Source: an uncultured Opitutia bacterium
GTDB lineage: Bacteria > Verrucomicrobiota > Verrucomicrobiia > Opitutales > UBA953
Length of the DNA stretch: 64,000 bases
Assembly: GCA_903855995.1 (NCBI GenBank)
Contig: CAIOAN010000012.1
Coordinates: 62,001-126,000, forward strand
Direction: 5' to 3'
The translations under genes and the position numbers were made by a program. Position 1 is the first letter of the stretch, and every line of letters starts with the position of its first letter. The notes under the pieces were generated by a model, which was given only the letters and a program-made list of their open reading frames with translations, was not told where the DNA came from and ran no database searches. Below are positions 36,479-54,175 of the stretch, piece after piece.

Positions 36479-36557
36479 GGTGTCCGTGCTGTTTGGAAGG
36501 TGGGAAAGAGGTCGGAACTTGGAGGTTCTGGTGGGATTTGAAAGCAAAAAATGAGGT

Positions 36558-37319: not shown

Positions 37320-37331
37320 TGCCAGCTAAGC

Positions 37332-38885
37332 TTAGCGAGCGAACGCACCCCAATGGTTGAGGCCCCAGGCCACAACACCCAGCAGGAAAAGGATCAGGCA
37401 GGTCTTCTCGAGCGACCCCAAGGCGGAGTTCTCGGAATCAGAACGAAGGCTCGCGGCTGGAACTGGGACGCCCCCGATACGGCCCTTCTTCAAGAAGCCC
37501 TCGTAGTTACGCTGCAGAAGATACGTCTCCACCTGGCGCATAGTGTCGAGCATGACTCCGACGGTGATCAGGCCGCCGGTTCCGCCGAGGAAAGTGGCCA
37601 GACGCATCGGGAAGCCCAGCTGCGAGATGAAGAGATCCGGCATCAGTGCGATAATCAGCAGGAAAATCGACCCGGCCAGAGTCAGGCGGGTCATCACGAA
37701 ATCCAAGAACTGGGCGGTGTGCTCGCCCGGGCGAACGCCAAGGATATAGCCGTTATTCTTCTTCAGGTCATCGGCGATCTGCACCGGTCGGAACATGATG
37801 CTGATCCAGAAATAACTGAAGCCGAAGATGAGCACGGCGTAGACGCCGTAATAGAAACCGTTGTTGCGGGAGAAGAAAGCTGACCAGTCGTGCAGGAACG
37901 CGAGCGTGGGGCTCAGGGTGCTCAAGGGATTGAGCAACATGGGCGGGAAACTCATGATGGCACCAGCGAAGATCACAGGCATCACGCCCGCGTAATTCAC
38001 CTTGAGCGGGAGATAGTTCGTCTGCGCACCGTACATCTTTCGGCCGACCATGCGCTGAGCGTACTGAATAGGAATCTTCCGGACGGCCTGGTTAATGGCG
38101 ACCATCGCCGCGGTGACGGCCACGAAAAGGAGGATCATCCCGGCGGCCTTCTCCCAGCCGTGGGAATTGACCACACCGGCACCAACCTTTCCACCGAAAG
38201 TCATGTCGACGAAAGAAGTGAGCGCTCCAGGGATGTCGGCTAGAATACCGACCGTGATGAGGACGGACGTTCCGTTACCGATGCCGCGCTGGGTGATTTG
38301 CTCACCGAGCCAAAGCATGACGATCGCACCCGAAGTAAGGAGGCAGACGCCCAGGCAGACGAAGAGGGTCTTGCTCTGCATCACCACGATGGTTCCCGTG
38401 AAGCTTCCGAGACCGAGGGCCTGGCCGACCTGCTGAGGATTGCAGAACGCCCCCAGTAGCAAAGCTGACTGCACGACCGCGATGAGAATCGTCAGGTAGC
38501 GAGAGTATTGGGCGACCTTCTGACGTCCGACTTCACCTTCCTGCTGGAGGCGCGCGATGGAAGGAACGACGGCCGACATCAACTGCATGATGATCGACGC
38601 GCTGATGTAAGGCATGATGCCCAACGAGAAGACGGCTCCCTTGAGGAGTGCGCCACCCGTGAACATGTTATACATGGCCACCACACCACCCGACGACTTG
38701 TCAGCCATCGAGTGGTAGTAGTCCATGATGTCCTTCGGATCGATACCGGGCAACGGGATATTCGCGCCGATACGGGCCACGAAAACCAGTGCAACGGTCG
38801 CGATCAGCCGAGCCCTGAGCTCAGGAATCCTCCAGCAGTTGGCGAAGGCCGAGAACATCGAGGAGGAGGGCGAGCCGAGGCTCAC
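37332..38885 (-). CDS. secY: Preprotein translocase subunit SecY
   Basis: Channel subunit of the Sec translocon, about 517 residues (typical 430-460). There are ten hydrophobic helices; the first is preceded by FANCWRIPELRARLIATVALVF and the plug region by NIPLPGIDPKDIMDYYHSM. Later come GIGNGTSVLI, RKIPIQYAQRMVGRK and LKKNNGYILGVRPGEHTAQFL. The GTG at 38885 overlaps the rplO stop (GTGA); the ATG at 38858 (MFSAFANCW) is an alternative giving 508 residues. Extra length lies in the periplasmic and cytoplasmic loops and the C-terminal tail. Confidence 0.97.
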   Translation of the reverse strand: MSLGSPSSSMFSAFANCWRIPELRARLIATVALVFVARIGANIPLPGIDPKDIMDYYHSMADKSSGGVVAMYNMFTGGALLKGAVFSLGIMPYISASIIMQLMSAVVPSIARLQQEGEVGRQKVAQYSRYLTILIAVVQSALLLGAFCNPQQVGQALGLGSFTGTIVVMQSKTLFVCLGVCLLTSGAIVMLWLGEQITQRGIGNGTSVLITVGILADIPGALTSFVDMTFGGKVGAGVVNSHGWEKAAGMILLFVAVTAAMVAINQAVRKIPIQYAQRMVGRKMYGAQTNYLPLKVNYAGVMPVIFAGAIMSFPPMLLNPLSTLSPTLAFLHDWSAFFSRNNGFYYGVYAVLIFGFSYFWISIMFRPVQIADDLKKNNGYILGVRPGEHTAQFLDFVMTRLTLAGSIFLLIIALMPDLFISQLGFPMRLATFLGGTGGLITVGVMLDTMRQVETYLLQRNYEGFLKKGRIGGVPVPAASLRSDSENSALGSLEKTCLILFLLGVVAWGLNHWGAFAR

Positions 38886-39349
38886 TCAGCGGCGGTGGCC
38901 GACTTCTTGACTTCGATCAGAATCGCCTTTCCGCCGGCTTTCTCGATCTTCGCCTTGGCGGATTCGGAGAAACGGTGGGCCTTGACGGTCACGGCGCGAG
39001 TGATTTCTCCCGTGCCGAGGATCTTGAGAAGGAGGGCTGCGGAACGAAGCACCCCAGCGGCCTTGAGTTCTTCGAGACCGAAGGACTTGCCTTCGAGTTC
39101 TTCGAAGTCACGGACGTTCAGCACTTCGTAATCAATGCGGTTGACGTTGTTAAAGCCGCGCTTGGGCAGACGACGGTAAAGGGGCATCTGGCCGCCTTCA
39201 AAGCCGGGGCGATGACCGCCGCCGGAGCGGGCCTTCATGCCTTTGTGACCACGACCGGAGGTCTTGCCGTGACCCGAACCGCGACCGCGGCCGAGCACCT
39301 TATGGCGATGCGTTGAGCCCTTGATAGCGGGCAGAGAATGGAGCTTCAT
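38882..39349 (-). CDS. rplO: 50S ribosomal protein L15 (uL15)
   Basis: 155 residues. The Gly-rich N-terminus has RHKVLGRGRGSGHGKTSGRG and HKGMKARSGGGHRPGFEGGQ, both diagnostic of L15; the C-terminal domain has VTVKAHRFSESAKAKIEKAGG. It lies 15 nt after rpsE with no rpmD (L30) between, unlike most spc operons. Confidence 0.97.
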   Translation of the reverse strand: MKLHSLPAIKGSTHRHKVLGRGRGSGHGKTSGRGHKGMKARSGGGHRPGFEGGQMPLYRRLPKRGFNNVNRIDYEVLNVRDFEELEGKSFGLEELKAAGVLRSAALLLKILGTGEITRAVTVKAHRFSESAKAKIEKAGGKAILIEVKKSATAAE

Positions 39350-39364
39350 GTCTTTGGTTTTCGC

Positions 39365-40003
39365 TTAGGCGCGAAGGGCCTTGATTTGTTCGAGGGTGCG
39401 GAGCTTGGACAGACCGTCCAAGGTGGCCTTCACGATGGCCTGAGGGTTATTGGAACCCATGGACTTCGAAAGGACGTCCTTGTAGCCGGCAACTTCCAGG
39501 ACCGCACGAACGCCGCCGCCAGCGATCAGACCGGTGCCAGGAGCAGCCGGCCGAAGCATGACAACGCCGCCGTCAGCATGGCCGACAACTTCGTGAGGAA
39601 TGGTGTTACCGCGGAGATTAACGCGAACGAGGGCGCGGTGAGCACGATCGGTACCCTTGCGGATAGCATCAGGGACTTCCTTGGCCTTGCCGTAACCCAC
39701 GCCAACGCGGCCCTTGCCGTCGCCAGCCACGACGAGCGCAGCGAAGTTGAAACGACGGCCGCCTTTGACGACCTTCGAGCAACGGTTGATGTGGACGACC
39801 TTGTCGTTGTATTCAGACGCCGGAGCGTCGTTACGATTGTCGCGACGTGGACCACGGCCAGGTCCGCCAGGACCACTGCGTCGGCCACCAGGGCCACCAG
39901 GGCCGCCGGGACCACGACGATCGCCACCAGGACCGGAACGGCCAGGGGCGCCAGGGGCGGCGGGAGCGGCAGGGGCCGCAGGGGCTTTGATTTCTTCGCT
40001 CAT
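39365..40003 (-). CDS. rpsE: 30S ribosomal protein S5 (uS5) with Gly/Pro-rich extension
   Basis: 212 residues against about 166. The first 60 residues are Ala/Pro then GPGG repeats with Arg ([19 protein letters not shown]). The core starts [20 protein letters not shown] and carries [20 protein letters not shown] and the C-terminal S5 domain. The extension resembles RGG-type RNA-binding tails and is probably disordered. It starts 4 nt after rplR. Confidence 0.96.
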
Positions 40004-40007
40004 GAAA

Positions 40008-40370
40008 TTAGAAGCTCAGGCCGGCCTGACGGGCGGCTTCGGCGAACGACTTGACGGTTCCGTGGTAGCGGCGACCGGCGCGGTCGAAGACAACCGTGGT
40101 GACGCCGGCGGCCTTCGCTTTTGCGCCGAAGGCAGTGCCGAACGAGGTGGCACCCGCGACGGTCGGACGCAGCTTCTGGCCGCGGAGATCCTTCGAGGTG
40201 GTGGCGAGAGAGACGAGGGTCACACCCTTGTCGTCGTCGATAGCCTGAGCATAAAGATGCATGTGGGTCATCTTGAGGGCCAAGCGGGGACGAGCGGCGG
40301 TGCCGCGAACCGTCTTGCGGATGCGCCAGCGGCGCTTCTGCGCCAGGAGATTCTTCTTCTGCAGTTTCAT
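40008..40370 (-). CDS. rplR: 50S ribosomal protein L18 (uL18)
   Basis: Binds 5S rRNA; 120 residues, usual length. Motifs: [37 protein letters not shown] and the C-terminus [20 protein letters not shown]. It follows rplF by 20 nt in normal spc order. Confidence 0.97.
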
Positions 40371-40390
40371 GGAATGTGTGAGCTAGCGGA

Positions 40391-40957
40391 TTAGGCCGTC
40401 TTCTTGCCTTCCTTGCGGCGGACGTATTCACCTTCAACGCGGACACCCTTGCCCTTGTATGGCTCGACGGGCTTGTAGAGCTTGATGGAGGCGGCGACCT
40501 GGCCGACCATGTGGCAATCGGCTCCGGTGATGAGGAGTTTCGTACCATCGGTGACGACGACATTAACGCCGGGGGGGACGGTGTAGCGAATCGGGTGGGA
40601 ATAGCCCAGCGCGAGGTCGAGTACGTTGCCCTTGAGCGCGGCCTTGAAGCCGACGCCTTCGATGAGAAGGGTCTTGGAGTAACCGGTGGTTACGCCTTCG
40701 ACCATGTTACGGATGATCGCGCGGATCGTCCCGTGAAGGGCACCGGCGGAGCCGGGCTTGGTGATTTTTCCGTCCTTATCCTTGACCTCGGTGAGGTCAG
40801 TGACGTTGACGACCTTGGCGTCGGCGACGACGCCGACTTCCTTCGGGAAGGGCTTTGAGAGTTCGCCCTTGGGCCCCTTGACGACGACAACATTGCCTTT
40901 GACGGCAACAGTGACTTTGTCGGGGATATTGACGGGCTGCTTACCAATTCGGCTCAT
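40391..40957 (-). CDS. rplF: 50S ribosomal protein L6 (uL6)
   Basis: 188 residues, slightly longer than the usual 177-180. N-terminus MSRIGKQPVNIPDKVTVAVK; C-terminal signature PYKGKGVRVEGEYVRRKEGK. Two L6 folds with GVTTGYSKTLLIEGVGFKA between. Normal spc position between rpsH and rplR. Confidence 0.97.
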   Translation of the reverse strand: MSRIGKQPVNIPDKVTVAVKGNVVVVKGPKGELSKPFPKEVGVVADAKVVNVTDLTEVKDKDGKITKPGSAGALHGTIRAIIRNMVEGVTTGYSKTLLIEGVGFKAALKGNVLDLALGYSHPIRYTVPPGVNVVVTDGTKLLITGADCHMVGQVAASIKLYKPVEPYKGKGVRVEGEYVRRKEGKKTA

Positions 40958-40989
40958 GACGTTTCTTGTTTAGGGTTGGGGTCGGGTCT

Positions 40990-41388
40990 TTACCAGACCT
41001 TGGCCAGGAGTTCGCCACCGACCTTCTGGCGGCGGGCTTCGGCGTCAGTCATGACGCCGCGGGATGTGGTGAGGATGGAGACGCCCATGCCACCGATGAC
41101 TTTCGGGACAGAGGAGTAACCTGCGTAAACGCGGCGACCAGGGGTCGAGACGCGCTCGATACTCGTGATGGCAGGAACGCCAGCGACGTATTTAAGGGTG
41201 ATTTCGAGCACAGGGAGGCCTTCACGTTCACCCTTGCGGGCGTTGGTGATATAACCGGCGTCGACCAGGATCTTTGCGAGACCCTCGCGGAGACGGGACC
41301 ACTGGACGGTAATCGCGGCCTTGTTGGCCTGCGAAGCGTTGCGGATAGAGGTCAGGAAATCCCCGACGGTGTCAGTAGAAGCGGACAT
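40990..41388 (-). CDS. rpsH: 30S ribosomal protein S8 (uS8)
   Basis: 132 residues, standard. N-terminus TVGDFLTSIRNASQANKAAI; C-terminal signature VIGGMGVSILTTSRGVMTDAEARR. In E. coli S8 represses the spc operon at rplE; no matching site was identified here. It starts 20 nt after rpsN with leader CAAAACC-ATG. Confidence 0.97.
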   Translation of the reverse strand: MSASTDTVGDFLTSIRNASQANKAAITVQWSRLREGLAKILVDAGYITNARKGEREGLPVLEITLKYVAGVPAITSIERVSTPGRRVYAGYSSVPKVIGGMGVSILTTSRGVMTDAEARRQKVGGELLAKVW

Positions 41389-41408
41389 GGTTTTGTTTTT
41401 CTGTTGGA

Positions 41409-41714
41409 TTACCAGGAGGCCTTGGTGACGCCGGGAATCTGGCCGTTGAGCGCGAGCTCACGGAAGGTGATACGGGAGAGACCGAACTTGCGGATGAACG
41501 CACGAGGTCGGCCAGAGATGGAGCAGCGGTTCTTGTGTCGAACCTTGGAAGAGTTACGAGGGAGCTTAGCGAGTTTGCGCTGAGCGTCGTAAAACGCCTC
41601 CTCGGTGGTCTTCGGGTCGGACAGGATCTTCTTCAATTCGGCACGCTTGACGGCGTGCTTCTTGACGAGGCGGTCGCGCTTGAGGGCGCGCTGGATGACG
41701 GACTTCTTGGCCAT
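41409..41714 (-). CDS. rpsN: 30S ribosomal protein S14 (uS14), zinc-free form
   Basis: 101 residues, the long zinc-independent (C-minus) type: no CxxC pairs. N-terminus [21 protein letters not shown]-terminal [13 protein letters not shown]-type motif is present ([20 protein letters not shown]). It lies 20 nt after rplE. Confidence 0.97.
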
Positions 41715-41734
41715 GCTGGTAAGGAGTTGGAGGG

Positions 41735-42328
41735 TTAGGCCTTGACGGCGGCGGTGGCGGTGGCGGCGGCGTCAGCCGTGCTGGAGCGACGGAACGGCAT
41801 GCCGAGGAGGCGAAGCAGTTCACGGCCTTCATCATCGGTCTGCGCAGAGGTCACGATAATGACGTCCATACCGATGTTGGCGCGCTGGGAACCGTCGGCC
41901 TGGGTCTCAGGGAAGATCGTATGGTCCGCGATGCCGAGGGAGTAGTTGCCGCGACCGTCGAGGCGGTTGGAGGTGCCGCGGAAGTCGCGAATCATCGGAA
42001 GTGCCACCGCGGTGAGGCGGAGGTAGAACTCCCACATGCGGGCGCCACGAAGGGTGACGACGCAACCCAACGGCATGCCTTCGCGCACCTTAAAGGCGGC
42101 GACAGACTTGGAGGCCTTGGTGATAATCGGCTTCTGGCCGGAAAGCTTGGTGATATCCTTGACGACTTCGGCCATGTGGCCCTTGTCGGCTTCGGCTTTG
42201 AAAGCAGAATTGATGACGATCTTCTTCAGGTTAGGAACCTGGTGAACGTTCTTGTAGCCGCGGCTCTTGATGAGATCGGGGACGACCTTCTCGAGGTAGA
42301 CCTTCTTGAGGTAAGGGACAGTTGCCAT
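41735..42328 (-). CDS. rplE: 50S ribosomal protein L5 (uL5)
   Basis: Binds 5S rRNA and the P-site tRNA; 197 residues, longer than the usual 178-187 because of the tail [14 protein letters not shown]. Motifs: [40 protein letters not shown] and DRGR-like [17 protein letters not shown]. The C-terminal Ala/Thr tail is another low-complexity addition in this array. Confidence 0.97.
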
Positions 42329-42361
42329 TAGCGTATTAAATCTCGGGTGGTTTCGTCTGGA

Positions 42362-42634
42362 TTATTTCTTGGCGGCCTTGGCCGGCTTCTTGGCGCGACG
42401 GGCGTCCCAGAGGGAGCCGAGCATCACGTTGGAGCGATGGATGGGGGCTTCACGTTCGGTGATGCCGCCCTGCCCGTCCTGCGTGCGCTTCAGGTGGCGC
42501 TTGACGAGGTTGAGGCCTTCGATGGTGAGGCGTTCGTCAGCACGGTTATAGCTGACGACTTTGCCGCGCTTGCCTTTTTCGGCGCCGGCGATGACGACGA
42601 CTTCGTCACCTTTCTTGATGTCGGTCTTGGACAT
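42362..42634 (-). CDS. rplX: 50S ribosomal protein L24 (uL24)
   Basis: 90 residues, at the short end of the family. The KOW motif DEVVVIAGAEKGKRGKVV is at 10-27, followed by GLNLVKRHLKRTQDGQGGI. The C-terminus ends in the Lys/Ala sequence RRAKKPAKAAKK. It starts 5 nt after rplN. Confidence 0.96.
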   Translation of the reverse strand: MSKTDIKKGDEVVVIAGAEKGKRGKVVSYNRADERLTIEGLNLVKRHLKRTQDGQGGITEREAPIHRSNVMLGSLWDARRAKKPAKAAKK

Positions 42635-42639
42635 GGTTT

Positions 42640-43005
42640 TCAGAGTACCTCGGGAGCGAGGGAGATGATCTTCATGAAGTTCTTGCTGCGGAGTTCGCGA
42701 GCAACGGGCCCGAAGATGCGGGTGCCCTTGGGGTTACCATTTTCGTCGAGGATGACGACGGCATTGGTATCAAAGCGGAGATAACTGCCATCCGCGCGGC
42801 GGATGGGAGCGACGGTACGGACGATGACAGCCCGGCAGACGGAGCCCTTCTTCACCTGAGCGTCAGGAGTGGAATCCTTGACGGAGCAGATGATGATATC
42901 GCCCACGCCAGCGGTATCGGTCAGCTGACCGAGGCGGCGGATCATGCGGACCCTGCGGGCCCCGGTGTTGTCGGCTACTTCGAGCCGAGAAAGCATCTGA
43001 ATCAT
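42640..43005 (-). CDS. rplN: 50S ribosomal protein L14 (uL14)
   Basis: 121 residues, standard. N-terminus [20 protein letters not shown]; the L14 signature region VCRAVIVRT and [20 protein letters not shown] follow. It starts 32 nt after rpsQ. Confidence 0.98.
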
Positions 43006-43037
43006 GTTATAAAGGTCTTAGGAGGGTAGGCCTGGCT

Positions 43038-43322
43038 TCAGTCTTCGATGGACTGGGCGGCGATCTTCGCGGCTTCGACGACGCGGATCACGCGCCAGCG
43101 CTTGAGCTTCGAGAGGGGGCGGGTTTCCATGATTTCGACCTTATCGCCGGCCTTGCACTCATTCTTTTCATCATGAGCGTGCAGGACGGTGCGGCGCTTC
43201 ACTTCTTTCCCGTAGACGGGGTGAGGCACGGTGTACTGGAAGTTGACCTTGACGGTCTTGTCTCCGGAACGGGAGGCGACCAGACCCAGGAGGGTCTTAC
43301 GGTTGGAGCGGGACTCGGACAT
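43038..43322 (-). CDS. rpsQ: 30S ribosomal protein S17 (uS17)
   Basis: 94 residues. OB-fold motifs RKTLLGLVASRSGDKTVKVN, then HAHDEKNECKAGDKVEIMET and RPLSKLKRWRVIRVVE. It starts 24 nt after rpmC. Confidence 0.97.
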   Translation of the reverse strand: MSESRSNRKTLLGLVASRSGDKTVKVNFQYTVPHPVYGKEVKRRTVLHAHDEKNECKAGDKVEIMETRPLSKLKRWRVIRVVEAAKIAAQSIED

Positions 43323-43346
43323 CGGGAAATCGGTTCGGGTTATGGG

Positions 43347-43577
43347 TTACTTCTTCTTAACGGCAACGGACTTGCCGGAAAGGACGGTCATGCATCGAGC
43401 CACGTCGCGGCGCAGGGCGCGGAAGCGGGCGGGGTTCTCGACGGCGCCAGTAGCCTGCTTGAGGCGGAGGCTGAGGAGCTCTTCGCGGGCTTCGCGAATA
43501 CGCTTCTGCAGTTCGGCCGGCGCCAGAGGGCGGATGGCAGTGGCGGCGGTGGGCTTGTCTTTCCGGTAGTTGGACAT
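43347..43577 (-). CDS. rpmC: 50S ribosomal protein L29 (uL29)
   Basis: 76 residues, two-helix protein at the exit tunnel that docks trigger factor and SRP. The motif LRLKQATGAVENPARFRALR and the following RDVARCMTVL are typical. The N-terminus (about 18 residues) is longer than in most L29s. It starts 41 nt after rplP. Confidence 0.95.
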   Translation of the reverse strand: MSNYRKDKPTAATAIRPLAPAELQKRIREAREELLSLRLKQATGAVENPARFRALRRDVARCMTVLSGKSVAVKKK

Positions 43578-43618
43578 CGGTGAAAAGGGTCAGTTATGAG
43601 TGTTCAGGGCCGGAAGCA

Positions 43619-44047
43619 TCAATACTTTTCGAGCTCTTCGCGGGCGACGAAGCGGCAGCGGACCTGCAGCTTGGTGTCAGCGAGGCGCATGGCTTCGCGG
43701 GCGACGGTGATAGTTACACCACCGACTTCGAAGAGCATCGTGCCCGGCTTGACGACGGAGACGTAGTACTCGACGCTGCCCTTACCAGAGCCCATTCGGA
43801 CTTCGGCAGGCTTACGGGTCACAGGGGTGTGAGGGAAGATGCGCATCCACATCTTGCCCTTACGCTTCAGCGAACGGGAGATGGCGATACGGGCGGCTTC
43901 GATCTGATTCGCAGGGAGGCGGGCACGGTCCAGGGACTGGATGCCGAAATCGCCGAACGAAAGCGTGTTGCAGGCCGTGGCGTTGCCGCGGATCTTGCCC
44001 TTGCGGTGCTTGCGCCACTTGGTGCGGGCGGGTTGGAGATTGGCCAT
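43619..44047 (-). CDS. rplP: 50S ribosomal protein L16 (uL16)
   Basis: 142 residues, near-standard. L16 motifs: TKWRKHRKGKIRG at the N-terminus, RIFPHTPVTRKPAEVRMGSG and GKGSVEYYVSVVKPG in the core, helping to position tRNA at the A-site. It starts 36 nt after rpsC. Confidence 0.97.
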   Translation of the reverse strand: MANLQPARTKWRKHRKGKIRGNATACNTLSFGDFGIQSLDRARLPANQIEAARIAISRSLKRKGKMWMRIFPHTPVTRKPAEVRMGSGKGSVEYYVSVVKPGTMLFEVGGVTITVAREAMRLADTKLQVRCRFVAREELEKY

Positions 44048-44083
44048 GTTGGTCTAGTTAAAGTCGGAGGTGTACGTTGAGGC

Positions 44084-44725
44084 TTAGAACTCGGAGTCCT
44101 TGGCGCAGATCCAGCACTTGATGCCGACCTTACCAGCCAGGGTGCGGGCTTCCGTGAAACCATAATCGATGTTTTCGCGGAGGGTGTGGAGAGGGACGCG
44201 ACCGACGCGAGCGGACTCGACGCGGGCGATTTCAGCGCCACCGAGACGACCGCCGAGGCGGATACGGATACCATCGGCACCGTTGGTCATGGTGGTCTGG
44301 ACGGCCTTCTTCATGGCGCGACGGAAGGAGATGCGGCGTTCGAGCTGCAGGGCGATATTCTCGGCGACGAGCTGGGCCACGAGGTCGGGGCGCTTCACTT
44401 CGTTCACTTCGAGGATGATATCGTCGATGCGGGCCTTGCCGGCGACTTTCTGGATCTCGGCGCGGAGGTTCTTAAGTTCATCGCCCTTGCGGCCGATGAC
44501 AACACCCGGGCGGGCGGTCCAAATACGCACGCGGACCTTCTGGCCGGCGCGTTCGATGAAGATGCGGGGCACGGCAGCCTGGCGGAGCTTTTCCTTGAGG
44601 AACGTGCGGATGCGGTAGTCCTCCAGGATGTTGGCGGGGAAGTCGCGCTTGGTGGCGTACCAGCGGGATTCCCAGTTGCGACGGACGGCTAGACGGAAGC
44701 CGATAGGATTTACTTTCTGGCCCAT
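44084..44725 (-). CDS. rpsC: 30S ribosomal protein S3 (uS3)
   Basis: mRNA-entry protein; 213 residues, without the long C-terminal tail of some species. N-terminus MGQKVNPIGFRLAVRRNWES; the KH domain has VVIGRKGDELKNLRAEI; the C-terminal half has GADGIRIRLGGRLGGAEIAR and ends GIKCWICAKD. It starts 9 nt after rplV. Confidence 0.97.
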   Translation of the reverse strand: MGQKVNPIGFRLAVRRNWESRWYATKRDFPANILEDYRIRTFLKEKLRQAAVPRIFIERAGQKVRVRIWTARPGVVIGRKGDELKNLRAEIQKVAGKARIDDIILEVNEVKRPDLVAQLVAENIALQLERRISFRRAMKKAVQTTMTNGADGIRIRLGGRLGGAEIARVESARVGRVPLHTLRENIDYGFTEARTLAGKVGIKCWICAKDSEF

Positions 44726-44734
44726 TGTGCGAAA

Positions 44735-45073
44735 TTACTTGGTGGCAGAACCCAGGGAGACACGAATGTGGCTCATGGATTTGTGGATAGGGTGAGCGGA
44801 ACCGCGGGCAGCCGGCATCGAACGCTTGATGACCGGACCCTGGTTGACCGTAGCGGAGACGATCACGAGATCGCTGCTGGAAAGGTTGTGGTTGTTCTCG
44901 GCGTTAGCGATGGCGCTGGCGAGGGTCTTCCCGAGCAGGCGCGCGGACTTGCGAGGGATGAAGCGCAGGAGCTGGATGGCTTCCTCGGCCGGGAGGCCTT
45001 GGATCTGGCGCGCGACTTCTCGCACCTTCTGGGGCGACATGCGGGCGAAACGGGTGGTGGCGTGTACTTCCAT
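44735..45073 (-). CDS. rplV: 50S ribosomal protein L22 (uL22)
   Basis: 112 residues. Motifs: RFARMSPQKVREVARQIQGL, SAIANAENNHNLSSSDLVIV and the tunnel loop region IKRSMPAARGSAHPIHKSMS. Normally rplV follows rpsS directly; here a secreted-protein gene stands between them (20 nt upstream of rplV). Confidence 0.97.
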   Translation of the reverse strand: MEVHATTRFARMSPQKVREVARQIQGLPAEEAIQLLRFIPRKSARLLGKTLASAIANAENNHNLSSSDLVIVSATVNQGPVIKRSMPAARGSAHPIHKSMSHIRVSLGSATK

Positions 45074-45093
45074 GACGTTAGTTAAATGGGTGT

Positions 45094-45432
45094 TCAGATG
45101 CGGGGATTGGCGCGAGGGGAGACAAGGTCGCCAGAAGAAATCTGGGCGGAGGCGTCGAGGGAGAGGATGAGAGCGACCGAGCGGTGACGACCGGCTTCGG
45201 CGATGACGACGGCACCGAAGGCGCGTCCATCACGACTCACATTACAGACAGTGCCCGGGCGGAAGCCGCGGTCGTGTCCGCCATCCAAGACAACCAAATC
45301 CGTCGCGCGGGCGGTGATGACCGCAACGACCGGAGCCTTGCCGTCCGCTTCCGCCGAACCCAGAACGCGGACTTCCGCGCCGACCGCGGTGGCGGCGACG
45401 AGAAGGGCGGACATGGAAAAGGCGGCGCGCAC
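45094..45432 (-). CDS. Small secreted protein inserted in the S10 operon
   Basis: 112 residues, family not firmly recognised. A signal peptide (MRAAFSMSALLVAATAVGA, cleavage about 19/20) precedes an all-beta exported domain: VVLDGGHDRGFRPGTVCNVS, then AFGAVVIAEAGRHRSVALIL and ISSGDLVSP. The pattern G-x-x-x-G-x-x-x-G with a late GDxV recalls the C-terminal domain of FlgT-type flagellar proteins, but this is a weak likeness. The start is a GTG, 8 nt after the rpsS stop and 20 nt before rplV in the same direction, so it must be on the ribosomal mRNA. An inner ATG at 45414 would remove the basic N-region of the signal. Confidence 0.75.
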   Translation of the reverse strand: MRAAFSMSALLVAATAVGAEVRVLGSAEADGKAPVVAVITARATDLVVLDGGHDRGFRPGTVCNVSRDGRAFGAVVIAEAGRHRSVALILSLDASAQISSGDLVSPRANPRI

Positions 45433-45440
45433 GGTATGGC

Positions 45441-45719
45441 TTACTGGGCTTCCTTACGGGAAGGCTGGGTGTGCTGGCGGAAGGTGCGCGTAGGGGCGAA
45501 CTCTCCGAGCTTATGGCCGACCATGTTTTCCGTCACATAGACGGGAACGAAGGCCTTGCCGTTGTGAACCTCAAGATTGAGACCGATGAAGTCAGGGGTA
45601 ACCGTCGAGCGGCGAGACCAGGTCTTGATCGGCTTGCGACTGTTGGCCTTCTGGGCGACGGTCACTTTGTCGACGAGGTGAGCGTCGACATAGAAACCCT
45701 TTTTACGAGAGCGTGCCAT
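45441..45719 (-). CDS. rpsS: 30S ribosomal protein S19 (uS19)
   Basis: 92 residues, standard. N-terminus [19 protein letters not shown]; signature [19 protein letters not shown] and [18 protein letters not shown]. Located after rplB (21 nt) as in all S10 operons; followed by the inserted secreted-protein gene. Confidence 0.97.
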
Positions 45720-45740
45720 GGTGAGATTGCTTGGTAGGGG

Positions 45741-46601
45741 TTAGACCTGCTTCACCTTCCGGCCGTTACGGCGAAGGATGATCTGGTTGTTGGAGGCCTT
45801 CGCCTTGGTGCGCGTCGGGAAGCCCTTCGCGAGCTGTCCCCATGGGGACTTGAGGTGCTGACGACCGCCGCCGCCCTTTTTCTTACCACCGCCACCACCG
45901 TTCGGGTGATCGACAGGGTTCATGGACATACCACGCTGACGAGGGCGAATGCCCTTCCAGCGGCTACGACCGGCCTTACCGAGGCTGGCGTTATGGTGAT
46001 CGACGTTGCCGACGATACCGACAGTGGCGCGACAATCGGCGTTGAGATAACGCTGTTCACCGGAAGGCATGCGAAGAATCGCACGGCCGGCTTCAAGGCC
46101 GAGCAGCTGGGCGAAACCGCCAGCAGAGCGGGCGAGCTGTCCGCCCTTGCCAGGTCCGATCTCGATGCAATGGATGAACGTGGCCGGAGGGATTAGGCGC
46201 AGAGGCAGGGAAAGGCCCGGAGAGAGCTGCTCCTGCGGGGTGTTCGTGCTGACAACCTTATCGCCGACCTTGAGTCCATCCGGAGCAAGGATGTAGTTCA
46301 GGGTCTTGTCGGCGTACTCGATGAGGGCCAGGTGAGACGTACGGTTCGGATCGTATTCGATGCGAATGACGGTGGCCGGCTGATCGATGCGGTCGCGACG
46401 GAAGTCGATGGTGCGGTAAAGCTTCTTATGACCTCCGCCACGACGACGAGAGGTGATGCGGCCGTAGCAATTACGGCCCATGGCACGGTGATTGCTCTCA
46501 GTGAGAGTCGGTTCCGGGCGGCCTGCGTGCAGACCCTCGGTCTTGACGCGCACGAGGAAGCGCGTGCCGGGAGTGATGGGACGATGAGTGACGATGGGCA
46601 T
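45741..46601 (-). CDS. rplB: 50S ribosomal protein L2 (uL2)
   Basis: Peptidyl-transferase-centre scaffold; 286 residues (usual 273-280). Motifs: GRNCYGRITSRRRGGGHKKL, SAGGFAQLLGLEAGRAILRM and the C-terminal GMSMNPVDHPNGGGGGKKK. The conserved histidine in PVDH is kept, but the usual next His (DHPHGGGEG) is Asn and the acidic residue is lost. It starts 18 nt after rplW. Confidence 0.97.
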   Translation of the reverse strand: MPIVTHRPITPGTRFLVRVKTEGLHAGRPEPTLTESNHRAMGRNCYGRITSRRRGGGHKKLYRTIDFRRDRIDQPATVIRIEYDPNRTSHLALIEYADKTLNYILAPDGLKVGDKVVSTNTPQEQLSPGLSLPLRLIPPATFIHCIEIGPGKGGQLARSAGGFAQLLGLEAGRAILRMPSGEQRYLNADCRATVGIVGNVDHHNASLGKAGRSRWKGIRPRQRGMSMNPVDHPNGGGGGKKKGGGGRQHLKSPWGQLAKGFPTRTKAKASNNQIILRRNGRKVKQV

Positions 46602-46619
46602 GGCTGGTCGGCTCCGAGA

Positions 46620-46907
46620 TTAGGCGAGGGAAATGACGTCGCCCTTCTTGAGGGTGACGATGGCGCGGCGGGAGTTCGTCTCCGTGAAGATCGATCCACC
46701 GGAAAGGCGGCTGCGGCGCAGCTTGCCCTTACGGATGAGCATGTTGATCTTTTCGACGGTCACCTTAAAGGAGGCCTCGATGGCCTTCTTGATCTGAGCA
46801 CGGTCAGCGCCAGGAAGGACCTCGAAGACGTACTTGTTATGTTCGGCGAGTCCGGAGGCCTTTTCGGTCAGGATCGGGCGAAGGATGATTTCAGAAGCGG
46901 GCTTCAT
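46620..46907 (-). CDS. rplW: 50S ribosomal protein L23 (uL23)
   Basis: 95 residues from the ATG at 46907 (MKPASEIILRPILTEKASGL); the upstream in-frame reading overlaps rplD and is not family-like. Motifs NKYVFEVLPGADRAQIKKAI and VEKINMLIRKGKLRR. Tunnel-exit docking site for trigger factor. It lies 11 nt after rplD. Confidence 0.96.
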   Translation of the reverse strand: MKPASEIILRPILTEKASGLAEHNKYVFEVLPGADRAQIKKAIEASFKVTVEKINMLIRKGKLRRSRLSGGSIFTETNSRRAIVTLKKGDVISLA

Positions 46908-46918
46908 GTTAGTACGAC

Positions 46919-47545
46919 TTAGTTTTTGGCGCGCTCGAGGACCTTCTTGAGGCCTTCTTCCGAGATCAGGATGCGCGGGGTGCGCACAAGATCGAGAGCG
47001 TTGAGGTTGGAGGAATTGGAGAAGATGGCGCGGCTGATATTGCGGCTGGCACGCACCACGGAGTCGGACCAAGAGCTGTCGACGACGAGGAGTCGCTTGC
47101 CTGCCGGACTGACGTTGGAGAGGACCTTGACGAAGACCTTGGTCTTCGGCTGGGACACTTCGAACTTCTCGATGACCGAGATGCCGCCGTCGGCAGCGAG
47201 CTCGAAGAGAGCACGCTGGAGCGCGATCTTCTTAGCTTGGGCCGTGATCGTCTTGGACCAGTCGCGAGGACGGGGGCCGAAGACGATACCACCCTTGTAA
47301 AGCTGGGGAGCGCGCTTGTCGCCGTGGCGAGAGCCGCCGGAACCCTTCTGCGGGAGCATCTTCTTACCAGAACCGGAAACTTCGCCGTAGTCCTTGGTCT
47401 TGGAAGTGCCCTGGCGCTTGTTGGCCTGGTAGGAGACGATAACCTGCTTGAGCAGGGCCACGCCCTTGTCGCCTTCGAAAGAAGGGATGTCGAATTCCTT
47501 CTCGGTGAAGGCGGATCCGTCGGGCTTGTAAACTTTGAGCTTCAT
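46919..47545 (-). CDS. rplD: 50S ribosomal protein L4 (uL4)
   Basis: 208 residues, standard. Motifs: RQGTSKTKDYGEVSGSGKK and QKGSGGSRHGDKRAPQLYKG forming the tunnel loop, then GIVFGPRPRDWSKTI. In E. coli L4 also regulates the S10 operon at its leader; here a structured 145-nt spacer lies between rpsJ and rplC rather than before rpsJ. Confidence 0.97.
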   Translation of the reverse strand: MKLKVYKPDGSAFTEKEFDIPSFEGDKGVALLKQVIVSYQANKRQGTSKTKDYGEVSGSGKKMLPQKGSGGSRHGDKRAPQLYKGGIVFGPRPRDWSKTITAQAKKIALQRALFELAADGGISVIEKFEVSQPKTKVFVKVLSNVSPAGKRLLVVDSSWSDSVVRASRNISRAIFSNSSNLNALDLVRTPRILISEEGLKKVLERAKN

Positions 47546-47566
47546 AACGCTGAGATGCTGGATGGG

Positions 47567-48208
47567 TTACTTGGCGGCGATGGCCTTCTTGGCCGGACGA
47601 ACGAGGACAACCTCGCCGTTGGCGCCGGGGAAACTGCCCTTGATGAGCAGAAGGTTCTTCTCAGCGAGGACTTGAACGACGCGGAGATTCTGGACGGTAC
47701 GCTGCACCTGGCCCATGTGGCCCGGCATACGCTTGCCCTTAAAGACGTGACCAGGAGTCTGACGCATGCCGATCGAGCCGATTCGGCGGTGCATCATGTG
47801 ACCGTGGGAGTCAGGCTGGCCATCCATGTTATGGCGCTTCATGACGCCCTGGAAGCCGCGACCTTTGACGGTGCCGATGACGTCGACCATCTGGCCCGCG
47901 GTGAACTTCTCGACGGTAATGACGTCGCCGACCTTGGCCTCGGAGGCACCAGGCTGGCGAATTTCGTGAAGATGCGTGTGGGGGGCTACGCCCGCCTTGC
48001 GGAGGTGGCCGAGCTCGCCGCCGGACATGCGGCTCTCTTTCTGCGGACCAAAGGCAATCTGGACAGCATCATAGCCATCCTTGTCGACGGTCTTGACCTG
48101 GGTGACAGGACAGGGGCCGGCTTGGACGACCGTGACAGGGACGAGGTTGTTCTCCGCGTCATAGACCTGGGTCATTCCGATTTTTTTACCGAGTAGCTGG
48201 TGTTTCAT
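47567..48208 (-). CDS. rplC: 50S ribosomal protein L3 (uL3)
   Basis: 213 residues. N-terminus MKHQLLGKKIGMTQVYDAEN; core GRGFQGVMKRHNMDGQPDSH and GSIGMRQTPGHVFKGKRMPG, the L3 signature; the Gln usually methylated lies in this area. It follows rpsJ by 145 nt, the longest spacer in the array. Confidence 0.97.
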   Translation of the reverse strand: MKHQLLGKKIGMTQVYDAENNLVPVTVVQAGPCPVTQVKTVDKDGYDAVQIAFGPQKESRMSGGELGHLRKAGVAPHTHLHEIRQPGASEAKVGDVITVEKFTAGQMVDVIGTVKGRGFQGVMKRHNMDGQPDSHGHMMHRRIGSIGMRQTPGHVFKGKRMPGHMGQVQRTVQNLRVVQVLAEKNLLLIKGSFPGANGEVVLVRPAKKAIAAK

Positions 48209-48218
48209 TTTCTAAGAG

Positions 48219-48258
48219 GCAGGTGGCTGTTGAGGCCGTTTGGTCATTGCTGACCTGC
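48219..48258 (-). other. Structured spacer between rpsJ and rplC
   Basis: The transcript can form either GGTCA-GCAA-TGACC (48255-48242, perfect stem with a GNRA tetraloop) or GCAGGT..ACCTGC (48258-48219). Both use the same GGT, so they exclude each other. The 145-nt gap around it holds no ORF or terminator. It may act as an L4-type control element displaced from the operon leader; this is inference. Confidence 0.4.
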
Positions 48259-48353
48259 ATTAGGCTTGGGATTTCCTTGCGGAATCTTGGTCCTGATAGA
48301 GGGGCGTTGGCGGCCTGCGTTGGGTTAGAGGTTAATGTGGAAGGGTTGAGGAG

Positions 48354-48662
48354 TTAGACTACGATGTTGATGTCAACCCCAGAAGGTAGGTTGAGCTTCT
48401 TTAGCTCGTCCACGGTCTGGGCGTTGGGCTCCATAATCTCAATCAGACGCTTGTGCGTGCGGATTTCGAACTGGTCCATCGACTTCTTGTCGACGTGAGG
48501 GGAGCGATTGACAGTCAGGCGGGAAATGTCGGTCGGCAGCGGCACGGGGCCGGTGACGCGGGCGCCGGTGCGCTTAGCGGTGTCGACGATCTCATTGGCG
48601 GACTGGTCGACCATGCGATAGTCGAAGCCTTTGAGCTTGATGCGGATTTTGGTGCGGGCCAT
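48354..48662 (-). CDS. rpsJ: 30S ribosomal protein S10 (uS10/NusE)
   Basis: 102 residues, standard. N-terminus [20 protein letters not shown]; signature [20 protein letters not shown] with the long loop that enters the 30S head. As NusE it also takes part in antitermination with NusG and NusB. It follows fusA by 25 nt without an intervening tuf. Confidence 0.98.
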
Positions 48663-48687
48663 CGGGAAACGGGTGTGTTGGGGGTAA

Positions 48688-50853
48688 TTAGGTGCGGGCC
48701 GGGGCGCGCGAGGAGGTCTCGACGACCTGCTTCAGGATGCCGGCAGGCACCTGTTCGTAGTTGCCGGGCTCCATGGAGTAGGAAGCGCGACCCTTGGACA
48801 GGGAGCGGACGTCCGTGGAATAACCGAACATTTCAGCCAGCGGGACGCGGGCTTCTATATTGCAGAGGCCGGCCTTGGTTTCCATGCCCTGGATCTGTCC
48901 GCGGCGGCGGTTCAAGTCACCCATGATGTCGCCCTGGTATTCTTCCGGAGTAACGACTTCGACCTTCATGATAGGCTCGAGGAGGATTGGCTTGGCGTCC
49001 TTCATCGCTTCCTTGAAAGCGAAGATGCCAGCCATCTTGAACGCCATTTCATTGGAGTCCACTTCGTGGAAAGAACCGAAGACAATGCGGGCCTTGAAGT
49101 TGATGACGGGGTAACCCGCGACAGTTCCGTTATTGGCGGCTTCGCGGATGCCTTCAATCGCGGGCTTGATGAATTCCTTCGGGATAACGCCGCCGACGAT
49201 CTCGCTAATGACTTCCTCGCCTTTTTCGCCCGGAACTCGCGTGGCAACTGGGTTGGGTTCGAGCTTGATTTCGACGTGTCCGTATTGACCACGACCACCC
49301 GACTGGCGGATGAACTTACCCACGCCTTCGGAGGCCAAGTTGATGGTCTCGCGGTAGGAAATCTGGGGCTTTCCGGACTTAGCTTCGACTCGGAATTCGC
49401 GCTTAAGACGGTCAACGATGATTTCGAGGTGAAGCTCGCCCATGCCCGAGATAAGGGTCTGGCCCGTCTCAGGATTGGAGGTGACCACGAACGTGGGATC
49501 TTCCTGAGCAAGGCGCTGCAGGCCGATGGAAAGACGCTCCTGGTCACCCTTGGAATTCGGCTCGATGGACATCGAGATGACGGGCTCGGCGAAGGTGGTC
49601 TTCTCGAGGATCAAGTCGTCTTCGGCGGTCAGGGTGTCGCCCGTGGCGATATCCTTAGGTCCGATGATTGCGCAGATGTCGCCGGAGTAGGCGACGTCGA
49701 TTTCTTCGCGGTCCATGGCGCGCAGGAGGACGATGCGCGAGATGCGCTCGTTCTTGCGGGTGCGAGGATTGTAAAGTGCTTCGCCCTTCTTGAGCTGTCC
49801 GCGATACACGCGGTAGAAGACGAGCTGGCCGACGTGTGGGTCGGACCAAAGTTTGAAGCAAAGGCCGGTGACCTTGGCTTTGTCGTCCGGACCGATGGCG
49901 ATTTCCTTTTCGCCGTCGTCGGTGAACGCCTTCTGGGGGCGCATGTCGATGGGGGAAGGCAGGAAGTCGACGACGCAGTCGAGGAGCATCTGCACGCCCT
50001 TGTTCTTGAAAGCGGAACCGGGGATTACGCCGATGAAGTTAAGCGAGAGGGTGGCCTTGCGGATGCCCGTGCGCATTTCTTCGATGGTCACTTCCTGGCC
50101 GTCGAGATACTTGGAGGCGAGCACGTCGTCGAAGTCAGCGAGACCTTCGATGAGCTTGGTGCGCCAGAGTTTGGCTTCGGCCTTCTGATTCTCAGGGATT
50201 TCGATCGTGTCGAACTTCATGCCCTTCGGATCGGTTTCGTCGTAGAGGTAGGCGGTGTTCTTGATCAGGTCGATCATGCCCTTGAAGTCTTCGCCCTGGC
50301 CGATCGGGATGAAGAGAGGGTGTGCGTTGCCCTTAAGCTTTTCGCGGATGTCGTCGACGGCGCCGAAATAATCGGCACCGGTGCGGTCCATCTTATTGAC
50401 GAAGGCGACGCGGGGAACGCCGTACTTGTTCATCTGGCGCCAGACGGTCTCGGACTGGGGCTGCACGCCGGCAACGGCGCAGAAAACGGCGACCGCACCG
50501 TCAAGGACGCGGAGCGAACGCTCCACCTCGGCCGTGAAGTCCACGTGACCCGGGGTATCGATGATGTTGATACGGTGATCGATATTCGCGAAATGACCTT
50601 CCTTCGTCTTCCAGCCTGCGGAAATAGCGGCCGCGGTGATCGTGATACCACGCTCGCGCTCCTGCTCCATCCAGTCGGTAGTGGCGGTGCCGTCATGGAC
50701 TTCACCCATCTTGTGCACCACGCCGGTGTAGAAGAGGATGCGCTCCGTGGTGGTCGTCTTGCCGGCGTCGATGTGCGCGGCGATGCCGATGTTACGCGTG
50801 TGCTCCAGCGGGAACGCACGGGTCGGGGAATTGAGGGGAGAGAGGGTGGACAT
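48688..50853 (-). CDS. fusA: Translation elongation factor G
   Basis: Translocase GTPase; 721 residues, slightly longer than the usual 690-710. G1 is [16 protein letters not shown], switch I is [15 protein letters not shown]3 DTPGHVDF and G4 NKMDRTG. Domains II-V follow, with [18 protein letters not shown] in domain IV and a normal domain V ending [14 protein letters not shown]. Its switch I keeps the canonical RGITI, unlike the tuf product. It is in the str operon after rpsG (42 nt). Confidence 0.98.
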
Positions 50854-50895
50854 GGTCGGAACCAGGTATCGGCCTAAAATTAATTCAGTCGGAGA

Positions 50896-51369
50896 TTACC
50901 ACTTAAGGTGAGCGAAGGCGCGGTTCGCCTGGGCCATCTTGTGCGTTTCTTCGCGCTTCTTCACCACGTTGCCGGTGTTGTTGTAAGCGTCGACGACTTC
51001 AGCCGCGAGGGCTTCGGACATCGTGGTTCCCTTGCGGCCGGCGGCGGCGGCGACGACCCAGCGCAGCGCGATGCTGTTCTGGCGTTCGGGGGAGACTTCG
51101 ACCGGGACCTGATAGGTGGCGCCACCGACGCGACGGCTCTTCACTTCGAGCTTCGGACGGCAGTTCTCGAGGGCACCGAGCAGCAGCTCGACGGGGTTAC
51201 CCTTCATCAGCTTTTCGCTGACCTTCTCGATCGCGCCGTAAACGATACCCTGGGCGATGGACTTCTTGCCCGACTTCATCACGACGTTGATGAGCTGGCT
51301 GATGAGGGGGCTGCTATAGCGGGCGTCCGGGAGGTGGGCGCGCTTGGCTGCTTTGCGACGACGAGACAT
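50896..51369 (-). CDS. rpsG: 30S ribosomal protein S7 (uS7)
   Basis: 157 residues, standard. N-terminus MSRRRKAAKRAHLPDARYSS; signature MKSGKKSIAQGIVYGAIEKV and the C-terminal MAQANRAFAHLKW. Organises the 30S head; represses the str operon in E. coli. It follows rpsL by 29 nt. Confidence 0.98.
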   Translation of the reverse strand: MSRRRKAAKRAHLPDARYSSPLISQLINVVMKSGKKSIAQGIVYGAIEKVSEKLMKGNPVELLLGALENCRPKLEVKSRRVGGATYQVPVEVSPERQNSIALRWVVAAAAGRKGTTMSEALAAEVVDAYNNTGNVVKKREETHKMAQANRAFAHLKW

Positions 51370-51398
51370 ATTCTAAGGGAGTTGGGTGCGGAAACGGA

Positions 51399-51782
51399 TT
51401 AGGCCTTCTTTTCCTTCGGGCGCTTGACGCCGTACTTGGAACGGGAGCGACGACGCTTCTCGACGCCGGAGCAATCGAGGGGGCCGCGGACGATGTGGTA
51501 ACGGACGCCCGGAAGATCTTTCACGCGGCCACCGCGGACGAGGACGACCGAGTGCTCCTGGAGCTTGTGGCCTTCGTCGGGAATGTAGGAGATGACTTCC
51601 TGACCGTTGGTCAGGCGCACCTTGGCGACCTTACGCTGAGCCGAGTTCGGCTTCTTGGGCGTACGGATCATGACCTGCACGCAGACGCCGCGGCGGAAGG
51701 GCGAGTTGTTCAAGGCAGGCGACTTCGACTTGGCCTTGGGTTGGACACGCGGTTTACGGACGAGCTGGTTGATGGTAGGCAT
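51399..51782 (-). CDS. rpsL: 30S ribosomal protein S12 (uS12)
   Basis: Decoding-centre protein; 127 residues from the ATG at 51782 ([19 protein letters not shown]); a longer reading adds 12 non-family residues. The streptomycin-relevant lysines in [11 protein letters not shown] and [12 protein letters not shown] are wild type; the nearby Gln replaces the common Leu of NSALRK. It is the first gene of the rpsL-to-rplQ array. Confidence 0.98.
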
Positions 51783-51813
51783 GGACCTCGGTAAATAGGG
51801 AAAAGAGTGTTTG

Positions 51814-51841
51814 GGCATAGGGGTCGAGGCCCCTCATGCAA
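51814..51841 (-). promoter_or_regulatory. Candidate promoter of the ribosomal protein super-operon
   Basis: Upstream of rpsL, minus strand: TTGCAT (51841-51836), 16 bp, TATGCC (51819-51814), about 32 bp before the start codon. The spacer contains GGGGCCTCGACCCC, a partial inverted repeat. The boxes match sigma-70 consensus only partly. Some promoter must exist here because the divergent TPR gene lies directly upstream. Confidence 0.35.
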
Positions 51842-51954
51842 GAGGAAAGTGCTTAGGTTTTAAGGTTTCTTTACTCGGCTACCTCCAACCGCCCTCTCTC
51901 GCCTTTTTTGGCGGGACAATTCCAGTGCCCACGCCATTACTCAAAACCCCTCTC

Positions 51955-53751
51955 ATGCTCCCCGCTCGCCCCCTCTTCGCTCTTCTCCTCGGGATGTCAT
52001 GCCTTCAAGGGTGGGCCCAGTCTGCTCCGGCCCAGGGCGCGTCACCGGCGCTGCCGACCGCAACCAAACCCGTTGAAGGAGCTAAAAATGAGGATAATGA
52101 CGCCGAAACCATCATTTTAGCAGGCATTCCCTCGCTGAAAGACAAAGAGTCTGTGCTAAGCTATGCCCGCCAAACCTACATCAAGGCGGACTTAATCAAA
52201 GACCCTACAATCAAACAGATGGTTCGGCTCGCGCTGACCAAAATCGAGGACCAGCCGGACAAAGCCGCCACCCTTCGTCAGGAATACCTTAACCAACTCT
52301 CGGAATACTTCACGAAACAGGCAATGGAAGCCCAGGCGCTCAATCAGCAGGCTGACGCGCTTCGTTTGATCCAAATTGCGGTGCGGTGCAATCCGGCCAA
52401 TGCTAAGGCTAAACTATTCTACGCCAACTTCTTACATACATCCATGAATCGCACGGATGACGCGATTCAGACCCTTCAGCATGGTCTAGAGTTTCTCCCG
52501 ATCGACGATGCGCTCACCAAGGATTACCTGGATCGCTATTTCCAGTTACTCCAGGCTCGGGAGCGCGATCAAGAAGTCATTGATCAAGGCCTGAAGTTGC
52601 TCCGCGATACCAAGAATGTCCCGGCCCACCTCCGTGATTCGCTCTCCCTGGCGGTGGCCACCTCGCTTTACTGGACGGGCAAATATCCAGATTCCGTTAA
52701 TATCATCACTGCCAACAGGTTAGATGACAAGCCTAGCGGTCTTTTACTCAAAGCTCGCGCTCTTTTCGAAGGGGGCAAGACCCTGGAATCCATCAGCTTA
52801 CTTGAGTCGAAGACCTCCGCCTTCAAGGGCAGCGCCCGCGATGCCGTCCTTTCTCAGCTCGCTCGCTTCCATATCCTTCTCGGCCAGTCCAAGGTCGCCT
52901 TGGCCGTCACGGAAGAGCGTATCGCCGCCGACGAGAAGGCGCCCTTCCCTCATATTCAAAAACTCCAGCTGCTCGATCGTCTCCGCCTGAAAGATGATTT
53001 CGAAAAAGAACTGCGCCTGGTTTTTGAAAAATATGCCGGCAGCTCTTCGGCGATGATCGCGCTCGCGAATTTTGCAGCGGAAAAAGGCTACACCAACCTG
53101 ACCGTCGCAATCGCGACTTCAGCGGCCAATCATAATCTCGAACGCGCGACCTTCGCCGCCCTGCACTTGGAAGCGCTGCTCAACAGCGAAGATCCGAACC
53201 AGGTGATCATCCAGTATCAGCAGGTCGTCGCCGCGGACCGGGGATTCTTCAAATCCAACGAGCCGATCGTACAGGCACTTCTGGGCATCGCTTACCACTC
53301 GCGCCGCAAACAAGACGCCGCCTCGGAAAAGCGCGACCACGACATCGGCGACCGCTATCTCGCCGAATTCCTGAAGGCCAAAGATCTCGGGCCCGAGGCT
53401 TACCGCTCCGTCGGGCGCCATCTGCGTCAGGTTCGCGCCAGCGATTCCGCCGTACGCGTCCTGGAAGCCGGCGTCATCGCCCACCCGCGCCACTCCCAAC
53501 TGCGGGCCGACTATATCAGCGCGCGTATCCTCGCCGGCCAGACGGCTGAATACGGCACCCGCAAGTCCGTCGCCGACGAATTGGAGCTGCTGCTCAACAT
53601 GCGCCGCCCCTCCCCCGTCGTCTGGCAGGACGGCGTGGCATGGCTCCGCTCGGAATCAAAACTTCCGGCTGAACGCGTCCGCCGCCTCGAAGCCAGCATG
53701 ACGCCTTTGATCCGCAGCAACCTCGACCCCGAGGCCCTCGCTGGTCGCTGA
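51955..53751 (+). CDS. Secreted tetratricopeptide-repeat protein
   Basis: 598 residues from the ATG at 51955; earlier in-frame codons are not credible. A signal peptide (MLPARPLFALLLGMSCLQGWA) is followed by a Pro/Ala linker and then helical repeats with TPR spacing (EAQALNQQADALRLIQIAVR, then AKLFYANFLHTSMNRTDDAI and onward to about 560). Probably periplasmic or lipid-free outer-membrane-associated scaffold; ligand unknown. It is divergent from rpsL and 7 nt upstream of sufE. The first 450 bp are more A+T-rich than the rest. Confidence 0.87.
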   Translation: MLPARPLFALLLGMSCLQGWAQSAPAQGASPALPTATKPVEGAKNEDNDAETIILAGIPSLKDKESVLSYARQTYIKADLIKDPTIKQMVRLALTKIEDQPDKAATLRQEYLNQLSEYFTKQAMEAQALNQQADALRLIQIAVRCNPANAKAKLFYANFLHTSMNRTDDAIQTLQHGLEFLPIDDALTKDYLDRYFQLLQARERDQEVIDQGLKLLRDTKNVPAHLRDSLSLAVATSLYWTGKYPDSVNIITANRLDDKPSGLLLKARALFEGGKTLESISLLESKTSAFKGSARDAVLSQLARFHILLGQSKVALAVTEERIAADEKAPFPHIQKLQLLDRLRLKDDFEKELRLVFEKYAGSSSAMIALANFAAEKGYTNLTVAIATSAANHNLERATFAALHLEALLNSEDPNQVIIQYQQVVAADRGFFKSNEPIVQALLGIAYHSRRKQDAASEKRDHDIGDRYLAEFLKAKDLGPEAYRSVGRHLRQVRASDSAVRVLEAGVIAHPRHSQLRADYISARILAGQTAEYGTRKSVADELELLLNMRRPSPVVWQDGVAWLRSESKLPAERVRRLEASMTPLIRSNLDPEALAGR

Positions 53752-53758
53752 TTTTAAA

Positions 53759-54175
53759 ATGTCCCTCGCCGCCAAGCGTGCAGAGCTCATCGCCGAACTT
53801 GAACCATTCGGCGACCACCATGAGCGGTTCCAATATGTCATCGACCGGGCCAAATCCCTACCGGCGCTGCCAGCCGAACTGAAGCTCGAGATATTTCTAA
53901 TCGAGGGCTGCACATCGAACCTCTGGCTCATTCCGTCGGTCGAGAACGGCGTCTGCCGCTTTCGGTGCGACGCCGATTCTTTGATCACCAAGGGTGTGGC
54001 CTCGCTGGTCTGCGAATTCTACGACGGCGAAAGCCCGCAGGCCGTGGCCGACACGGACGCCGACTTCCTCGCCGCGGTCGGCATCACGCAGCACCTCTCG
54101 CCTAATCGCCGCAACGGGCTCACGAATCTGGTCGGGAAGATCCGCGCATTCGGTCGCACCGCCGTGAATCGCTGA
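53759..54175 (+). CDS. sufE: SufE-type sulfur acceptor protein
   Basis: 138 residues, family size. The active-site Cys is C51 in FLIEGCTSNLWL, after the substrate-facing RFQYVIDRAKSLPALP. SufE takes persulfide from the cysteine desulfurase SufS and activates it for Fe-S assembly; no sufS or sufBCD is in the window. It is in one operon with the upstream TPR gene (7 nt). Confidence 0.93.
   Translation: MSLAAKRAELIAELEPFGDHHERFQYVIDRAKSLPALPAELKLEIFLIEGCTSNLWLIPSVENGVCRFRCDADSLITKGVASLVCEFYDGESPQAVADTDADFLAAVGITQHLSPNRRNGLTNLVGKIRAFGRTAVNR

Follow-up and report, generated by a model that had tools for sequence, protein, structure and literature searches.

Results

A gene between rpsS and rplV

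The genes rpsS and rplV are adjacent in almost all bacteria. In the 64,000-nucleotide stretch of DNA analyzed here (hereafter the window), from an uncultured Opitutia bacterium, they are separated by a 112-codon ORF that runs in the same direction, on the minus strand, starts with GTG, and is spaced 8 nt from rpsS and 20 nt from rplV (Table 1). These coordinates match exactly those of the original prediction, which had proposed a gene for a secreted β-domain protein inside the S10 operon; conservation, signal-peptide features, purifying selection and the fold model described below all agree with that proposal. Pfam recognizes the two neighbors as S19 and L22 and has no family for the ORF between them.

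Table 1. Features of the rpsS–rplV region, in window coordinates
Feature	Position	Strand	Evidence or remark
rpsS (uS19), upstream neighbor	45441..45719	-	PF00203, E 6e-35
Gene for a small, apparently exported β-domain protein, 112 codons, without family name	45094..45432	-	ORF, conservation, dN/dS
Signal-peptide-like N-terminus, ~residues 1–19, MRAAFSMSALLVAATAVGA/E	45376..45432	-	Hydrophobic core and small-x-small motif; cleavage site (slash) placed by eye
Mature β-barrel domain, residues 31–107	45112..45342	-	AlphaFold pLDDT >90 over most; fold matches FlgT C-domain, F1-ATPase N-domain, MreC
C-terminal tail RANPRI, just outside the barrel	45097..45114	-	In the genus, no stretch of the protein has lower entropy
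20-nt gap to rplV	45074..45093	-	No Shine-Dalgarno-like sequence or covarying RNA hairpin
rplV (uL22), downstream neighbor and the family's usual partner in broken operons	44735..45073	-	PF00237, E 2e-36

The codon adaptation index of the gene is 0.579, compared with 0.596–0.78 for the r-protein genes and 0.441 for a neighboring non-ribosomal TPR gene. Codon bias is only suggestive of expression; taken together, the tight same-strand spacing and the intermediate bias make it likely that the gene is co-expressed with the ribosomal proteins. Over the whole window, Rfam reported two tRNAs only, neither of them at this gene. An RNA element at the locus is unlikely, since Rfam has no match here and the rplV junction shows no covarying hairpin.

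Conservation and selection in the genus

The same ORF was found between rpsS and rplV in all 20 same-genus loci examined. Pairwise dN/dS against the window copy falls between 0.14 and 0.37 in every genus pair with finite dS but one (L096, 0.565), and the invariant residues of the 112-residue protein are encoded by several synonymous codons. This substitution pattern is that of a translated gene, a point on which the original prediction could have failed. A chance ORF or antisense artefact is thus ruled out by dN/dS and conservation.

Scanning GTDB genomes yielded 43 relatives, titled nearly throughout as Opitutae, Opitutales or Verrucomicrobia MAGs; the few with other titles, e.g. Polynucleobacter or Akkermansia, seem to be MAGs under a wrong name. 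At one locus (L008:1-475, G004:C82), rplV is 68% identical to the window copy and the adjoining rpsS 99%, a mismatch that possibly marks a mis-assembly or a recombination joint near the contig end.

Presence, loss and inheritance in Opitutales

Of 132 genomes from the order, 61 gave a match to the gene in a profile search. In the 119 genomes with rpsS and rplV on one contig, which form the basis of the comparison, the length of the rpsS–rplV interval is bimodal: 62 are enlarged (at least 250 nt) and 57 short. All 62 enlarged intervals hold the gene, 61 by match (G026 by separate searches) and one, in G072, as a diverged copy; none of the 57 short-interval genomes matches the genus profile. With a wider profile, a few of the latter give weak, distant matches elsewhere (e.g. 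G149, 1.5e-5), and a profile search for gene remnants in the short intervals found none. One family, f14 (G037, G059, G114, G137, G149, G241, G256, G279), has intermediate intervals of 91–221 nt, with no detectable domain in those fetched; these are perhaps remnants of a lost gene.

Distances between copies of the gene track those between r-proteins (Mantel r 0.82, 0/999 permutations). On the r-protein tree of the order, the root state is presence, followed by 10 changes under Fitch or 12 losses under Dollo parsimony. The gene is dispensable in the order, given these ~10–12 losses, and phylum genomes with short intervals likewise manage without it. Within the order, neither a relocation of the gene nor a detached copy was observed.

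Export signal, fold and tail

A signal-peptide-like start, called by a simple test of hydrophobicity and small-x-small motif rather than by SignalP, is present in 38 of 38 aligned members of the order, and the flanking r-proteins do not have it; the predicted signal peptide is to this extent upheld. AlphaFold models of 32 sequences give pLDDT >90 for approximately residues 31–100, arranged in six strands. The β-domain that had been anticipated is thus a confidently modeled, six-stranded small β-barrel of the kind seen in the FlgT C-domain, the F1-ATPase N-domain and MreC. With VIA-align 2, the N-terminal barrels of F1/V1-ATPases and the C-domain of FlgT come out side by side (Z 9.2–9.7); Foldseek ranks FlgT first and also lists MreC, with no match at E 0.001 or better. 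Families absent from the lists of these structure tools are not thereby excluded. The fold gives no function, because it is a common small barrel for which Foldseek has no match at that threshold. By sequence, no solved homologue was convincing.

In the genus, the RANPRI tail has a mean entropy of 0.24, compared with 0.99 for the core, in which one of 71 windows is as conserved. The motif is limited to the genus and one sister genus, with the variants RANSRI, RPNPRI and RVNPRL inside the genus; the C-terminal tails of other families are IKTxQNS-like.

Distribution in Verrucomicrobiota

The slot gene is carried by this lake bacterium and by much of the phylum Verrucomicrobiota. Outside the order, 34 genomes have longer relatives in the rpsS–rplV slot, in which a signal peptide or membrane anchor is followed by a coiled coil and then by the same C-terminal domain. 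In six more (L135, L204, L205, L207, L209, L210), the gene lies directly upstream of rplV and rpsS is not next to it. Among 155 phylum genomes sampled, the interval is short in 47 and enlarged in 50, and the operon is broken between rpsS and rplV in 51, where 'broken' in a draft genome can also mean a contig end. Seventeen broken-operon loci were fetched: the gene is just upstream of rplV in 12, one gives a weak match and four have none. Four enlarged intervals had no profile match; of those fetched, the wider profile finds the gene in L232 and L233, and not in L234.

The family defined here comprises genes directly upstream of rplV whose products have an export signal and a C-terminal barrel, and the window gene has all of these features. 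A lack of conservation in close relatives, which would have spoken against the original prediction, is clearly not what the rpsS–rplV intervals show: the gene is conserved in the genus, in the order and beyond. The prediction could not see the scale of the arrangement, which is phylum-wide and mostly takes the longer, coiled-coil form. Occurrence across order and phylum rules out a recent local insertion. In our best reading, the family has long resided in the S10 operon, next to rplV on its upstream side, and has been inherited vertically.

Two further observations may be added. In L217–L231, L235 and L236, and in families f41, f46, f47, f51, f52, f57, f59, f63, f65–f67 and f69, a break in the S10 operon separates rpsS from rplV, and the additional gene is usually the first on the side of rplV. 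Furthermore, coiled-coil and barrel paralogues are found at other loci (L177, L183, L184, L185, L186, L188, L190, L193, L213, L214, L136, L137), in tandem in L183 and L213.

Comparison with known systems

The C-terminal domain of FlgT (PF16538; FlgT, 3w1e, 8z5n) resembles the window protein in being a small exported β-barrel of similar size. The two align over 73–80 residues at 2.1–2.8 Å with 16–18% identity (Z 9.3 for 3w1e and 9.5 for 8z5n), scores that unrelated F1-ATPase barrels equal. FlgT has extra domains, and its role is in the flagellar basal body; the window gene lies in the S10 operon. At E up to 1, the window protein gives no hit to the FlgT_C Pfam model, and the best long relative reaches 16.7 bits against PF16538, below the gathering cut-off of 27. 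MreC (PF04085) shares with the long relatives its layout of anchor or signal peptide, coiled coil and periplasmic β-domain, whereas the window protein, consisting of a signal peptide and a single barrel, has neither coiled coil nor membrane anchor. Weak matches of relatives to the MreC (NCBIfam) and FlgT_C profiles agree with the fold but stay below the cut-offs, and Pfam MreC does not match the window protein. Identity with MreC is ruled out: the same genome encodes a separate, canonical MreC (E 2.9e-27), so the window protein is not simply MreC. The N-terminal β-barrel of F1/V1-ATPases has the same barrel arrangement (Z up to 9.7) but is a cytoplasmic part of a large enzyme, with 4–16% identity; the resemblance is one of fold only.

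Among small conserved proteins of the superphylum, the PVC signature protein CT421.2 was also considered. In the accessible part of its published account, CT421.2 is an uncharacterized protein of ~53 to >80 residues, conserved in the superphylum (PMC3444138), and in this respect it is like the window protein, which is likewise small and uncharacterized. Identity is ruled out by size, and that part of the account makes no link to the rpsS–rplV slot or to export (PMC3444138).

Discussion

The computed position, conservation, selection, signal-peptide features, fold prediction and phylum-wide linkage are the ground for interpretation; beyond them, we infer operon co-expression, a periplasmic location, a scaffold role and coupling to growth. 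Thus, we propose, with a probability of roughly 0.55, that the gene encodes an uncharacterized periplasmic scaffold-like domain protein, an old S10-operon resident co-expressed with ribosomes, whose dose tracks ribosome output. The product would be exported by Sec and reside in the periplasm as a stand-alone β-barrel domain, and the Opitutales gene would be the short form of an uncharacterized Verrucomicrobiota family whose other members carry a signal peptide or anchor, a coiled coil and the same barrel. Most likely, the gene and those of the ribosomal proteins are transcribed and translated together, in which case the dose of its product would follow ribosome output. Outside the inner membrane, the protein probably scaffolds envelope assembly or acts in it as an adaptor, like MreC or FlgT-type domains.

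The fold is already known; what is new is that a ribosomal operon houses, on the scale of a phylum, the gene of an apparently exported protein. No Pfam or NCBIfam model covers the window protein, and our literature search, for which most subscription journals were out of reach, found no account of a gene in the rpsS–rplV slot and no usable essentiality screen. The gene is also a candidate phylum marker and the representative of an uncharacterized family without a Pfam or NCBIfam model. It has long been asked how bacteria keep envelope growth in step with their ribosome content; the slot gene offers a natural experiment on this question, and the arrangement is testable in cultured Verrucomicrobiota.

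The scaffold reading has to be weighed against the possibility that the position means nothing. Ribosomal operons rarely rearrange, and an ordinary envelope gene that entered this stable operon early in the phylum would have stayed by default, with strong constitutive transcription and a position without functional meaning. Its many losses in the order, as well as paralogous coiled-coil/barrel proteins at other loci (L177, L183, L190 and L213), would be expected of such a frozen accident. However, in genomes with the operon split precisely between rpsS and rplV, the gene adjoins rplV in most cases examined, and some 10–12 losses in the order have left no detached copy in sight. We regard this alternative as tentative and, on balance, unlikely.

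On the other side, the fixed position in a ribosomal operon suggests a link between ribosome making and envelope building. In its strongest version, Verrucomicrobiota would possess a dedicated ribosome–envelope link, in which either the dose of the protein reports ribosome synthesis to envelope assembly, or rplV translation is under feedback from a nascent chain that depends on export; the second form, if true, would be a secretion monitor of a ribosomal-protein operon. We consider a link this specific doubtful.

Two narrower proposals fare less well. First, the protein, like secY further along the operon, might serve export itself, e.g. by partnering the Sec translocon in the periplasm. Indeed, secY lies in the same gene run (window 37332–38885), and in most of the phylum the exported domain comes with a coiled coil. 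Profile and structure searches, however, found no link in sequence or fold to any Sec component, and the gene is frequently lost in the order whereas Sec is universal, which leaves this role very unlikely.

Second, the nascent chain might act in cis as a secretion monitor of the SecM kind: it would pause at its R-A-x-P-like tail (RANPRI-stop), resume when export pulls on it, and in this way adjust rplV translation. SecM is encoded upstream of secA, and other arrest peptides precede sec or yidC genes; common to these and the window gene would be a small exported protein 5' of a possibly controlled gene, with an R-A-x-P-like C-terminus. The signal peptide, the small size, the position just upstream of rplV and a tail nearly invariant in amino acids despite synonymous codon variation are consistent with this. 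Unlike the SecM type, the window gene has a ribosomal gene downstream, encodes a conserved folded domain, and loses the motif beyond near relatives. Arrest peptides known so far have RAGP- or RAPP-like endings, and RANP is absent from the main text of both reports (PMC10987492, PMC12992588). RANSRI, RPNPRI and RVNPRL break the motif within the genus itself and the IKTxQNS-like endings replace it in other families, so that an arrest motif conserved near the C-terminus across homologues, as in the SecM type, is not found. Finally, the RNAalifold consensus over the rplV junction and start shows no covarying pair, and rplV has no Shine-Dalgarno-like site to unmask. We would judge a secretion monitor highly improbable.

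Apart from the scaffold reading and its alternatives, some features of the surrounding DNA may be recorded. In the ribosomal cluster (window 36098–51818), the gene start regions that were inspected are without Shine-Dalgarno-like sequence, and several have a CTTTA/TTTAA-like motif ~8–14 nt 5' of the start. Divergent from this cluster lie the genes for a weakly matched TPR-repeat protein (51811–53748) and a SufE-family protein (53759–54172).
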